Positions 16,847 to 61,456 of a DNA stretch of 64,000 bases are shown piece by piece. Source of the DNA: Dyella sp. C11 (GTDB lineage: Bacteria > Pseudomonadota > Gammaproteobacteria > Xanthomonadales > Rhodanobacteraceae). The position numbers were made by a program, and so were the translations under genes. Below the pieces are notes generated by a model. That model ran no database searches, was not told where the DNA came from, and saw only the letters and a program-made list of their open reading frames with translations. The stretch spans positions 276,454-340,453 of the forward strand of contig NZ_QAVX01000002.1 of assembly GCF_003121485.1 (NCBI RefSeq). Direction: 5' to 3'. Every line of letters starts with the position of its first letter. Positions within the stretch are counted from its first letter, which is position 1.

Positions 16847-17585
16847 CACTGGTTGGTTCCCTCTCCCGGCGGGGAGAGGGTTGAGGCATCGGCATCTTTA
16901 GCGTGGCATTGCGATCTTTTGGCTCGTGACGGGTGAGTGGTCGCGAGAATGGCATTCTGCGGGCCTGTGTCTTTGCGCGTTTCTCGCTCCCGCGTGTCGA
17001 AAGCCTTCACCACTCCCTCACCGTCACTCCCGCGAAGGCGGGAGTCCAGTGACTTTGCTTTTTTTTTTGCGGTTTTGGTTGTTCGCAACTTCGAGCGCTG
17101 CCGCGATCTGGCCGCTCACGCCGCGGAGGCGTTTCGATCGTCTGCCGACGACGCGAAGCTAGTCCCGTGGGACGCTCGAGTCACTTTTCTTTTGCTGGCC
17201 CAAAAGATCCCACGGGGACTAGCGTTGCGTCGAAAGTAACCCAAAGAAAATGGCCTTTAGAGCCAAGGCTCGTAGCATTGCGACGGGATAAGCCCGAACG
17301 GTTGAGGTGCGTTGGCACTTGGCAACCTTCGCCGAGACACAGCGGGTACTTCATTCCGCTTCGCAACGCGCCGATGCCAAGAGGGCTTAAAGCAGGTGGT
17401 CGCTACGCTTCCCGACCACTGCGATGGATCAAAGCGAACGCTACGCTTCCCGACCGCTGTGGTGTGACAAAGCCCTCGCCCTGCTTTCCGACCACAGGGG
17501 CGATTCAAGAGACGCGCTTCGCTTTCCGACCGTCGTGGGCAATGAACTCGGATACGTGCGGCGGTACGCAACCACAGCTTTGGCT
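16847..17585. repeat. Degenerate intergenic repeat region (no gene seen)
   Basis: I see no credible gene here. It holds a degenerate CCCTCTCC/GGGGAGAGGG palindrome (about 16860-16882), an inverted copy of the CCCGC-GAAG-GCGGG hairpin repeat (about 17026-17056), a T run (17059-17068), and an inverted copy of the TTACTTTTCTTTG module split by extra sequence, which itself forms CTAGTCCCGTGGGA (17159-17172) against TCCCACGGGGACTAG (17207-17221). Open frames across it encode low-complexity peptides and are unlikely to be genes. Confidence 0.6.
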
Positions 17586-18236
17586 CCCTCTCCCCTCCGG
17601 GGAGAGGGTTGGGGTGAGGGGCCAATCTAGCCTCTCCCTTCCAATCGATCCTTCTTGAAGGCAGAAGCAAAGCGACCTGCCCACGACGCGATGTGCAGCA
17701 AAGCTGCACGAGCCGTCCGCTCCGCTCTTGATCCTGGGCCCCCTGTGCGGCGGTGAGGGGTGGACGAGCAGGCCCCGCAGGGGTGCCGGACATGGATGAC
17801 AGGCACTTTTCGCCCGGGCAGGAGCCCGGTCGAAAAGCCCGGCCGCCCCTCACGGACTGTCTGGGCGTAGCCCAGACAGCGCCAAGCGGGGGTGCCCTTT
17901 CTTTTGGTTACTTTTCTTTGGGCAAGCAAAGAAAAGTGACCCGGCGATCGGCAGATCGTCGGAAGCCCGCGGCAGGCGAGCCAGGTCGCGGAAAGGCCGC
18001 AAAAGAACCCAAAGGCAAAGTCACTGGATTCCCGCCTTCGCGGGAATGACGGTGAGGGATAGGGACGTCATCGCGAGGATGACGGTGAGAAATAGCGACG
18101 TCGTCGCAAGGATGGCGGTGAGAAATAGCGACGTCGTCGCGAGGGCGGCGGTGAGTAGATAGACACGTTCCCGCGAGCACCCGCCCTTTATCCCCTTTTC
18201 GGGACTCACCCCAACCCTCTCCCTGGAGGGGAGAGG
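17586..18236. repeat. MITE-like mosaic repeat island 2
   Basis: This has the same architecture as island 1. The left end has the CCCTCTCCCC/GGGGAGAGGG palindrome and GGGGTGAGGGG at 17586-17624. The right end has the inverted copy at about 18170-18236, interrupted by roughly 25 extra bases. The core at 17890-18000 repeats the ATTCTTTGG-like module (CTTTCTTTTGGTTAC, then a CTTTTCTTTG/CAAAGAAAAG hairpin) and the GATCGGCAGATCGTC segment almost exactly as in island 1. It is followed by the GGATTCCCGC/GCGGGAATG hairpin and three short direct repeats of a GACGTCGTCGC-type unit (18065-18150). It sits between convergent genes. Confidence 0.75.
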
Positions 18237-33270: not shown

Positions 33271-34029
33271 CCCTCTCCCCTCCGGGGAGAGGGTCGGGGT
33301 GAGGGGCGGGTGCTCGAGAAAGCAGACCCAAAGGCAAGCCCTCGCTCCGCCCTCTATTGACTCTGCCTCTTATAAGAAAAAGCAAAGTCACTGGATCCCA
33401 GCCTTCGCTGGGATGACGGTGAGGGAAACATACGTAGTCGCGAGCGTGGCTTTTGCTTTGCTTTGCTTTGCTTTGCTTTGCCTTTGCCTTTGCTTTGCTT
33501 TGCTTTTGCTTTTGCCTTTGCCTTTGCCTTTGCTCTTAGCCCTTAGCTCTTCGGGGTCCCCGTATGACAGCGGCGGGCGGGTGAAGGAATAGCCCGCAGG
33601 GTGGCCGGCAGGACGCCGGCCAGTTTGTCGTCAGGGCAGGATGCCCTGTCGACAAACCCCGTAACCCGCACGCGGACCTGGAGGGCTGAAAGCCCGGAAG
33701 GCGCGGTCATCCGGGGTGCCCTTCTCTTTGGTTACTTTCTCTTGGGCAAGCAAGAGAAAGTGACCCGGCCTCCGGCAGGAGGTCGGAAGCCCGCGGCAGG
33801 CGAGCCAGGTTGCGAGAGCGCGAAAGAAGAACCAAACATCGTCACGCGACAACCTAATGCGAAGGCGCTGGATCCCGGCCTGCGCCGGGATGACGGTTAG
33901 GGGTAGAGACGCCATCGCGAGGATGGTGGTCAGCGATGGGATCGGCGTCGCCAAGATGGCCGTAAGGGGTTGAAACGCCATCGCGAGCACCCGCCCCTCA
34001 CCCCAACCCTCTCCCCGAAGGGGAGAGGG
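33271..34029. repeat. MITE-like mosaic repeat island 3
   Basis: This is the largest island, between the convergent phaZ and threonine aldolase genes. Terminal inverted repeats of about 46 bases (left 33271-33318, right about 33984-34029) carry the CCCTCTCC/GGGGAGAGGG palindrome, GGGGTGAGGGG and CGGGTGCTCG. The core repeats the GCCGGC-AGGAC-GCCGGC and GTTTGTCG...TCGACAAAC hairpins of island 1 (33605-33658) and the TTACTTTCTCTTGGG/CAAGAGAAAG module (33731-33762, with compensating changes). It adds two GGATCCC hairpins (about 33390 and 33870) and a CTTTG microsatellite. No gene is seen. Confidence 0.78.
33449..33533. repeat. CTTTG/CCTTTG microsatellite
   Basis: An 85-base tract is made almost wholly of tandem CTTTG, CTTTTG and CCTTTG units. 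It lies inside island 3 and is probably length-variable through slippage. It is absent from islands 1 and 2. Confidence 0.9.
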
Positions 34030-46053: not shown

Positions 46054-46622
46054 GTCTGCGCAACACCGAGCATCAATGGGGATCGGTGGCCAAATTCTTC
46101 CACTGGACGATTGCCCTGCTGATCATCGGCAACGGCATCTTCGGCCTGTGCATGGATCTGGCCCACGGGCCCATGCAGAAGATCAACTGGCTGGCGTTGC
46201 ACAAATCGATCGGCCTGACCGTGCTCGCGCTGTTCCTGCTGCGCGTGCTGTGGCGACTGGCCAACCGCCCGCCCAGGGACGAACCCGCGCCGCGCTGGCA
46301 ACACTATGTGGCACACGGCGTGCACATGACGCTTTACCTGCTGGTGGCGCTGCTGCCGCTCAGCGGATGGTGGTTCAACTCCATCGTGGGCAAGCCACTG
46401 CAGTTCTTCAAGCTGTTCAACCTGCCGGCGCTTACCGACGCAAACCCGGATGCGCGCCACTTGTGGCGCGGCGTGCACGAATACCTGTTCTGGTTCCTGG
46501 TGGCGCTGCTGGTACTGCACATTGCCGGTGCCCTCAGGCATCACCTCGTCGACCGCGACAACACCTTGCGGCGCATGCTCCCCTTCGCACGCGTGCGCCC
46601 GAACCCCAAAGGAGAACGTTGA
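46050..46622 (+). CDS. Cytochrome b561 family protein
   Basis: This 190-residue four-helix diheme membrane protein oxidises or reduces quinones. Candidate heme ligands are His18 (KFFHWTIALL), His51 (LALHKSIGL), a His in YVAHGVHMTLYLL and one in LLVLHIAGALRHH. It is flanked on both sides by YceI genes in overlapping frames, consistent with a shared quinone or lipid substrate in the envelope. The E. coli relative CybB oxidises superoxide, and that activity is possible here. Confidence 0.92.
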   Translation: MSLRNTEHQWGSVAKFFHWTIALLIIGNGIFGLCMDLAHGPMQKINWLALHKSIGLTVLALFLLRVLWRLANRPPRDEPAPRWQHYVAHGVHMTLYLLVALLPLSGWWFNSIVGKPLQFFKLFNLPALTDANPDARHLWRGVHEYLFWFLVALLVLHIAGALRHHLVDRDNTLRRMLPFARVRPNPKGER

Positions 46623-47182
46623 TGAATCGCTCCGCATTGAAATTCGCCCCGCTGCTGCTCGCGCTTGCCCTGCCCGGCCTGGCCAGTGCCGCCGATTACG
46701 CCGTGCAGCCTGCCGGCAGCAAGCTCGGCTTTGCCGGCAGCTTCCAGGGCCAGGCGTTCGACGGCAGCTTCGGCCAGTGGACCGCTGCCATCAGCTACGA
46801 CGCGGCCAAGCTCGCCACCTCGAAGTTCGACGTGGAAGTGGACCTTTCCAGCGTGAAGACCGGCGACAAGGATCGCGACGGTGCCTTGCCCGGCTCAGAT
46901 TTCTTCAACATCGCCAAGTTTCCCAAGGCGCATTTCGTCACCACCGGCTTTCGCCAGAATGGCGCGCAGGTGGTGGCCGACGGCAACCTCACGCTGCGCG
47001 GCGTGACCAAGCCGGTGAGCCTCAACGTGGCGTTCAAGCCCGCAGGTACGGGCGGCACCATGGACGTGACCGGTTCGGTGAAGCGTCTTGATTTCGGCGT
47101 GGGCGGCGGTGATTACGCCGATACGTCGGTGATCGCGAATGACGTGAAGATCAACGCGCACCTGGTGCTCACGGCCAAGTAA
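46622..47182 (+). CDS. YceI family exported protein (second copy)
   Basis: This 186-residue product has a signal peptide (LLLALALPGLASAADYAV) and YceI features: GSKLGFAGSFQGQAFDGSF, DVEVDLSSVKTGDKDRDGAL, FPKAHFVTTGFR, GNLTLRGVTKPVSLNVAFKP and DTSVIANDVKINAHLVLTAK at the C-terminus. The ATG shares one base with the b561 stop (TGATG). The last 17 codons are duplicated downstream in a tandem repeat array beginning at 47117, so the gene's 3' end is repeat unit 1. Confidence 0.93.
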   Translation: MNRSALKFAPLLLALALPGLASAADYAVQPAGSKLGFAGSFQGQAFDGSFGQWTAAISYDAAKLATSKFDVEVDLSSVKTGDKDRDGALPGSDFFNIAKFPKAHFVTTGFRQNGAQVVADGNLTLRGVTKPVSLNVAFKPAGTGGTMDVTGSVKRLDFGVGGGDYADTSVIANDVKINAHLVLTAK

Positions 47183-47935
47183 GCCCGCAGCACTTTTTGT
47201 GGGAGCGCACCCTGTGCGCGACAGCCACTTCGCACGGTACAGATGCCCCTGAGGGCGCCGTCGCGCACAGGGTGCGCTCCCACACAGTCGATGGTTCGCG
47301 CACCCCGCTGCGGCACTCCCTGTAGGAGCGCACTCGTGCGCGACCATCACCTCGAACGACGCAGCACCGTGCCACGCTGCGGTCGCGCACGAGTGCGCTC
47401 CTACACATCAACGGTGCCGACAACGGTCATCGCCAGTGATGTGAAGGTCAACGCGCGCTCGGTGCTCACGGCCAGGTAAGCCAGCACCACTTTTGTGGGA
47501 GCGCACCCTGTGCGCGACAGCCACTTCGCACGGTACAGATGCCCGTGAGGGCGCCGTCGCGTACAGGGTGCGCTCCCACACGGTCGATGATTCGCTCGCC
47601 CCGCTGCGGCACTCCCTGTAGGAGCGCACTTGTGCGCGACCATCACCTCGAACGACGCAGCACCGTGTCACGCCGCGGTCGCGCACGAGTGCGCTCCTAC
47701 ACATCAACAGTGCCGACGACAGTCATCGCCAACGAAGTGAAGGTCAACGCGCGCACGGTACAGATGCGCGTGAGGGCGCCGTCGCGCACAGGGTGCGTCC
47801 CACACAGTCGATGGTTCGCGCGCCCCGCTGCGGCACTCCCTGTAGGAGCGCACTCGTGCGCGACCATCACCTCGAACAACACGGCACCGTGCCACGCCGC
47901 GGTCGCGCACGAGTGCGCTCCTACACGTCAGCGTT
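47117..47935. repeat. Tandem array of about 297-bp units, each a yceI 3' tail plus two REPINs
   Basis: Unit 1 (47117-47415) starts inside the yceI gene. Unit 2 (47416-47711) repeats its tail as VIASDVKVNARSVLTAR plus stop, without a gene in front. Unit 3 (47712-47935) repeats VIANEVKVNAR and then has lost the stop and the first REP. After each tail come a type 1 REPIN (head GTGG; e.g. 47199-47222 and 47260-47283) and a type 2 REPIN (head GTAG, arms GAGCGCAC/GTGCGCGAC; e.g. 47322-47344 and 47382-47404). The array ends in the glutaredoxin stop region. Open frames across it are not credible genes. Confidence 0.88.
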
Positions 47936-48164
47936 TGCCCACGAAAGCCGTCACGGCCGCGGCATCGAACGGCCAATCCATCTCCCGGCCGTCTTCGCGG
48001 TCGCGGAGCACCGGCACGCGGGTGCCATAGCGCTGCTCCAGTCCCTCATCGTCATCCACCCACTGACTGTCGAAGTCCGGTGCACGCGCCTGGGCCATGA
48101 CGGCCAGCGCCTGGTCGCACAGGTGGCAGTAGTCGCGTTGGTACAGCACATATCGGGTCGGCAT
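47928..48164 (-). CDS. Glutaredoxin-like thiol protein
   Basis: This 78-residue thioredoxin-fold protein reads YVLYQRDYCHLCDQALAVM with redox site CHLC (Cys13 and Cys16), the cis-Pro motif TRVPVLRD and a C-terminal helix. It belongs to the small DUF836/glutaredoxin-like group. The partner and substrate are unknown. Its 3' end borders the yceI-tail repeat array. It is divergent from the siderophore receptor. Confidence 0.85.
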   Translation of the reverse strand: MPTRYVLYQRDYCHLCDQALAVMAQARAPDFDSQWVDDDEGLEQRYGTRVPVLRDREDGREMDWPFDAAAVTAFVGKR

Positions 48165-61224: not shown

Positions 61225-61456
61225 GTGGGAGCGCACCCTGTGCGCGACTGCGGACTGGCGGCGCACTTCAGCCCGTGAAGCCCGGGCAAAAGGCGGTCGC
61301 GCACAAAGTGCGCTCCTACAGAGGTAGGACCGTGGCCCGGCATCCCGGCCTCACTCCCCTGTAGGAGCGCATCTTGTGCGCGACCGCGACCTGGCGGCGA
61401 ACCTCAGTCCCTGAAGCGCGCGGCGAAACGTGTTCGCGCAAAGGGTGCGCTCCCAC
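61225..61456. repeat. REP cluster upstream of prfC
   Basis: Four REP copies: forward type 1 (61225-61248), an inverted variant with AAA loop (61296-61319), forward type 2 with GTAG head (61361-61384) and an inverted degenerate copy (61432-61456). Together they fill most of the 334-base gap between the M24 and prfC genes. Confidence 0.82.

Follow-up and report, generated by a model that had tools for sequence, protein, structure and literature searches.

We analyzed a 64,000-nucleotide window of the Dyella sp. C11 genome (contig NZ_QAVX01000002.1, positions 276,454 to 340,453 of the forward strand) and describe a tandem array within it, composed of repetitive extragenic palindromic (REP) doublets forming hairpins (REPINs) together with pieces of neighboring genes. 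The array lies between yceI on the plus strand and a gene encoding a glutaredoxin-like protein on the minus strand (Table 1). It consists of three head-to-tail units approximately 297 bp apart, each of which begins in the 3′ end of yceI; that is, REPINs and their flanking DNA are repeated in a fixed order, as in an ordered tandem REPIN cluster.

Units of the array and their junctions

The unit starts listed in Table 1 were obtained by ungapped matching, with a spacing of 297 between units 1 and 2 and 296 between units 2 and 3. When a 2-nt indel was allowed, the starts were 47117, 47416 and 47712, indicating that exact starts depend on the alignment. Tandem Repeats Finder (TRF) reported a period of 296, 2.1 copies and a score of 1077 for the array, and it detected no further repeat with a period above 33 in the 64 kb window. 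An earlier note on this DNA, made from the sequence alone, had described a three-unit repeat with two REPIN types; TRF and self-matching confirmed this description, and the starts given in that note hold with the 2-nt indel. The same note had reported an intact tail without a gene body in unit 2 and an internal deletion in unit 3, and both were seen here. Unit 2 contains VIASDVKVNARSVLTAR followed by a stop codon and lacks the gene body. In unit 3, 71 nt are missing, comprising the remaining tail, the stop codon and the left arm of the GTGG REPIN. The ends of this deletion meet at a CGC-CGGT microhomology formed by short repeats in the tail and in the REPIN loop. What remains of the GTGG REPIN is some of its loop and the right arm, itself one nucleotide shorter. 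Of the REPINs in the array, five are whole (two GTGG and three GTAG), and one GTGG copy is a remnant. Each of the five whole copies is an inverted REP pair with GTAG-type heads that forms a long hairpin, with arms of 25–28 nt that are 93–100% complementary, and single-strand folding was strong in all five (z -7.0 to -8.8).

Table 1. Position and content of the array, its units and the flanking genes (window coordinates).
Feature	Position	Strand	Content
yceI	46622..47182	+	YceI-like domain (Pfam PF04264, E 7e-37); intact; unit 1 begins with its last 56 bp
Array	47127..~47927		Three head-to-tail units
Unit 1	47127..47423	+	True yceI tail; one REPIN of each type (GTGG, then GTAG); probable first copy of the end of the glutaredoxin-like gene
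GTGG-head REPIN of unit 1	47198..47284		28-nt arms, 31-nt gap; single-strand DNA fold z -8.4
GTAG-head REPIN of unit 1	47321..47405		25-nt perfect arms; single-strand DNA fold z -8.8
Junction 1/2	47406..47430		Probable copy of the minus-strand glutaredoxin-like gene 3′ end, followed by the copied yceI tail; join near GCC(G/C)A
Unit 2	47424..47719	+	Spare yceI tail with stop codon, GTGG REPIN, GTAG REPIN
GTGG REPIN of unit 2	47494..47580
GTAG REPIN of unit 2	47617..47701
Unit 3	47720..47927	+	Spare tail fused to the GTGG REPIN loop through a 71-nt deletion; whole GTAG REPIN
GTAG REPIN of unit 3	47841..47925
Glutaredoxin-like gene	47928..48164	-	78 aa (PF05768, E 6.3e-11); intact; 3′ end probably forms the right end of the repeat unit

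The right end of the unit resembles the last ~20 bp of the glutaredoxin-like gene at both internal junctions, which the earlier note had missed. The true end of this gene reads CACGTCAGCGTTTGCCCACGAA, and the two internal junctions read CACATCAACGGTGCCGACAACG and CACATCAACAGTGCCGACGACA. With one end of the match fixed at the REPIN border, scores as good were reached by 56 of 20000 random stretches of the window for junction 1/2 and by 29 for junction 2/3. Sequence farther upstream within yceI was considered as a rival source of the junction DNA, and it showed no match. We consider that the unit most likely comprises the whole convergent intergenic region and a piece of both facing genes, joined near GCC(G/C)A. 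The yceI stop codon lies 15 bp from the nearest REPIN and that of the glutaredoxin-like gene 2 bp; therefore, almost every border outside the REPINs lands in a gene. A duplicated piece with one end in each facing gene leaves both genes whole and places their severed tails at the junction. A separate mechanism for capturing gene tails is unneeded.

The units of the window array are not equally alike along their length. Identity was 64/80 in the coding ends versus 404/433 in the middle (Fisher p = 0.0004). The longest identity run, 54 bp, lies in the GTGG REPIN past the stop codon, and runs in the tail do not exceed 14 bp. Nine of 56 positions distinguish tail 1 from tail 2; over the first 33 nt, we counted five differences between tails 1 and 2, six between tails 1 and 3 and four between tails 2 and 3. 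The spare tail of unit 2 encodes R, S and R where all 20 genomes compared, including that of C11, have H, L and K. Three of its eight changed codons are silent (judged by eye), as expected without selection. The spare tails are most likely functionless in themselves.

Arrays at other loci and in other species

We examined REPIN-bearing regions in the C11 genome (G000; 20 regions) and in two single-contig genomes of the genus, G007 (11 regions) and G019 (9 regions), the latter two sets each including the genome's own yceI site. The regions were chosen among the matches listed, mostly where these were clustered, so that arrays like that of the window were favored. Long-period arrays were present in 13, 6 and 1 of these regions, respectively, which gives 21 arrays including the window. 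According to the longest self-alignment, the unit included 24 or more aligned bp belonging to a called gene in 10 of the 21 arrays: 7/14 in the C11 genome (the window, L043, L044, L047, L049, L050 and L055), 3/6 in G007 (L150, L151 and L153) and 0/1 in G019. L039 (15 bp) and L048 (17 bp) fell under the 24-bp line, and L041 was scored as none, its 59-bp gene-end overlap being found in a weaker alignment only. Gene ends were called by a codon model trained on 39 open reading frames (ORFs) of the window. Pfam was run on 20 proteins, one of which was a transposase; 18 of the 19 others matched a family at E ≤0.001, with the upstream gene of L043 below its family's cut-off and the gene at L039 matching none.

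The genes whose ends lie in array units are unrelated to one another. The overlaps involve a LuxR-type response regulator (103 bp), a carbonic anhydrase (82 bp), an alpha/beta hydrolase (50 bp), an outer-membrane efflux protein (39 bp), a glutathione S-transferase (GST; 24 bp), a ketopantoate-reductase type protein (158 bp) and a polyphosphate kinase (76 bp). The overlap in L047 is the 5′ end of the downstream gene, and the unit of L153 includes both convergent genes, by 30 and 76 bp. The capture of coding sequence into a REP array had been called unusual in the earlier note; with such gene ends in 10 of the 21 arrays examined, this description does not hold. As a raw count, 16 of the 20 arrays for which both neighbors were called sit between convergent genes.

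The same gene was affected in two genomes. In G007 (L150), a 93-bp tail of an alpha/beta hydrolase gene is present in four copies 235 bp apart, of which the three spare copies have 1, 1 and 4 mismatches. In the C11 genome (L050), a 50-bp tail of the orthologous gene is present in three copies with a period of 288. The two arrays differ in their borders and periods, indicating separate events at one gene.

Orthologous sites were compared in 20 genus genomes, one per species. An orthologue of yceI was present in all 19 other genomes searched, and a self-repeat following it was found in 2/20, i.e., in C11 and in G004. The G004 array has a period of 109 and begins past the stop codon. Among the remaining 18 genomes, six had no REP-head motif after yceI, five had one and seven had two. 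After the hydrolase gene, 7/19 genomes had a self-repeat; these were of varied make-up, and that of G019 was weak. Neither G002 nor G003 had a self-repeat at the yceI or hydrolase site. The number of REPINs at orthologous sites thus differs among species, indicating that the arrays change over evolution.

The array gave at least 193 matches in the C11 genome, with both strands counted, and the matches are mostly intergenic as judged in the examined regions only. Across G000, G007, G015, G016 and G019, the number of matches ranged from 97 to at least 193; G002 had three and G003 one, one of each being the yceI gene itself, and REPINs of other sequence were not sought there. The load of window-like REPINs varies sharply within the genus. 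A Y1 transposase (Y1_Tnp) gene on contig G000:C45 (L085:1402-1890; Y1 domain at 17238-17558 of the contig) is flanked by GTAG REPs, with a pair immediately upstream and one immediately downstream. From this flanking REP setting, we infer that it is a REP-associated tyrosine transposase (RAYT). A second Y1_Tnp gene (L086) had no such REP motif in the 3.3-kb stretch examined.

Three further repeats were noted in the window. Two adjoining REPINs with unlike heads, GTGG outside and GTAG inside, lie at 61225-61456, as if two REPIN types had recombined. A slippage-prone simple repeat of approximately 15 copies of the TTTGC / TTTGCC type lies at 33452-33534 and is uncovered by nearby ORFs of at least 120 aa. 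At 18038-18155, 3.6 copies of a 33-bp repeat lie outside ORFs of at least 120 aa, before a deformylase-like ORF (named by eye).

Origin of the array

We consider it very probable that the array is a species-specific tandem duplication of the REPIN-bearing convergent intergenic region and is a by-product of DNA duplication rather than a switch. The presence of the yceI tail in all three units next to an intact parent gene favors this origin. It is also favored by the same architecture elsewhere (the 10 arrays with gene ends, L153 with both convergent genes, and the hydrolase arrays), by the strong REPIN folds and by the REP-flanked Y1 gene. In the first step, a GTGG and a GTAG REPIN would have come to lie between yceI and the glutaredoxin-like gene; both are present here, and other species have none, one or another set. 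One end of a homology-poor duplication would then have fallen in yceI, ~56 bp ahead of its stop codon, which is seen directly, and the other in the 3′ end of the glutaredoxin gene, which is probable, the match being short. Hairpin-stalled replication with template slippage may be the likely cause of this step. Later exchange between the long repeats may have raised the number of units from two to three and kept the middle alike while the severed tails decayed. Finally, unit 3 would have lost its 71 nt between short repeats, the deletion itself being plain from the alignment. The simplest reading would be an old first duplication, then exchange in the REPIN middle, and then a two-to-three step that copied an already decayed junction, although the order of these events is weakly supported.

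The lengths of the arrays were informative in this regard. Total length equals a whole number of periods within 17 bp in 16 of the 21 arrays and within 12 bp in 14; therefore, most of them appear to be joins made outside the REPINs between sequences sharing little or no homology. An exchange between two REPINs would leave an excess of approximately one REPIN (85 bp).

Several observations weigh against this origin. The glutaredoxin match is short: when its ends were left free, 597 and 247 of 20000 random stretches were as good. In addition, the two junctions showing it are not independent, and GCC(G/C)A at the join could be due to chance. Tails 2 and 3 resemble each other (4/33 differences) hardly more than they resemble tail 1 (5 and 6 of 33), so that the two-to-three step is weakly supported. 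Five of the 21 arrays miss the whole-number rule, i.e., the window (-65, with its deletion), L044 (+21), L046 (+91), L048 (-98) and L157 (-24). L046 fits an exchange from REPIN to REPIN, and L044, L048, L157 and the window fit neither process cleanly. The edge effect is small when the 21 arrays are pooled (coding ends 738/816, noncoding edges 1070/1188, middle 6052/6538), with p values against the middle of 0.036 for coding and 0.004 for noncoding edges, computed on columns that are not independent. Furthermore, L049 and L150 show no excess divergence at the coding end.

Greater divergence of tails in general was suggested by five of the first six arrays; over the pooled 21 it was small and equal to that of noncoding edges (coding 90.4%, noncoding edges 90.1%, middle 92.6%), and the general claim was rejected. 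A homogenized middle appears well supported for the window array only.

Alternatively, the array may be kept as a putative terminator or supercoiling buffer between convergent genes, with the tails as passengers. The count of arrays between convergent genes and the strong hairpins so near the two stop codons are in line with such a role. However, no array was found at the same site in 18 of the 19 other species. In addition, REPs generally favor convergent and unidirectional pairs in the available part of PMC3733652, so that the bias needs no selection on arrays. We regard such maintenance as unlikely.

Much less probable still is a serial insertion of REPIN units by the RAYT, dragging flanking DNA along. 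The genome does contain a Y1 transposase gene flanked by GTAG REPs. However, the window unit begins 71 bp outside the REPIN, within yceI, and not at a GTAG or GTGG end, and the flanks are locus-specific in the arrays examined. Insertion by the transposase at REPIN borders was rejected because the unit borders do not fit.

The earlier note had proposed a possible small variation system in which recombination between units could swap the C-terminus of YceI or alter the length of the array. Unit 2 indeed offers a spare tail with a stop codon in an open frame, and the number of REPINs at orthologous sites varies among species. However, no sign was seen of silent copies recombining into an expressed gene, and the tails of the window array are not homogenized: its coding ends are less alike than its middle, and R, S and R occur in the YceI of 0/20 genomes. 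Exchange depends on long stretches of identity, which reach 54 bp in the REPIN and at most 14 bp in the tail; it would thus be expected past the stop codon, with YceI unaltered. The gene ends in array units also come from unrelated genes (hydrolase, carbonic anhydrase, response regulator, GST and efflux protein). We consider a variation system that serves a purpose highly improbable, and the proposed C-terminus swap is opposed by these data. An assembly artefact, for which the draft state of the C11 genome (46 contigs) might speak, was rejected as scarcely credible, as one unit has a private deletion, ~7% of middle columns and ~20% of those in coding ends differ between units, and the same architecture is present in the single-contig G007.

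Beyond the window, REPIN hairpins could be hot spots of homology-poor tandem duplication that repeatedly yield arrays with severed gene ends in genomes rich in REPINs, sometimes through independent events at the same gene in different species, as for the alpha/beta hydrolase gene of G000 and G007. We put this forward tentatively, as a possibility that falls well short of the confidence placed in the duplication origin of the window array itself.

Relation to known REP and REPIN clusters

No special system has to be invoked for such an odd gene-tail copy; where convergent genes lie close together, a tandem duplication around the REPINs between them is enough. The severed tails mark the inside of each array, and the history of the units may be read from them. 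Such tails are not to be annotated as pseudogenes or C-terminal cassettes.

Bacterial interspersed mosaic element 2 (BIME-2) arrays of enterobacteria are intergenic and consist of tandem alternating REP units of variable number, in which the repeated piece is a REP with short linkers. In the arrays studied here, by contrast, most unit borders lie outside the REPINs.

Ordered tandem REPIN clusters with flanking DNA are known from Pseudomonas fluorescens SBW25 (Bertels and Rainey 2011, PMC3116915), and the legend of figure S7 of that paper depicts units with flanks f1 and f2, similar to the units described here. The available part of that paper does not mention neighboring coding ends in the unit, whereas the window unit combines two REPIN types with gene ends. 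Similarly, large clusters of GTAG REPs have been described (Di Nocera and colleagues 2013, PMC3733652). According to the part of that report available, GTAG REPs are mostly located between convergent or unidirectional genes, and those between convergent genes in two species mostly lie <20 bp from the 3′ ends. That part makes no mention of units that include gene ends, as found in the window. A search by title and start of abstract, with partial coverage of the literature, found no description of gene-end capture in REPIN units. If REPINs are indeed hot spots of duplication, they would widely enlarge intergenic regions and generate extra gene 3′ ends, a role not described in the available parts of PMC3116915 and PMC3733652. 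The addition to the known clusters is small, namely that gene ends are often part of the repeated unit.
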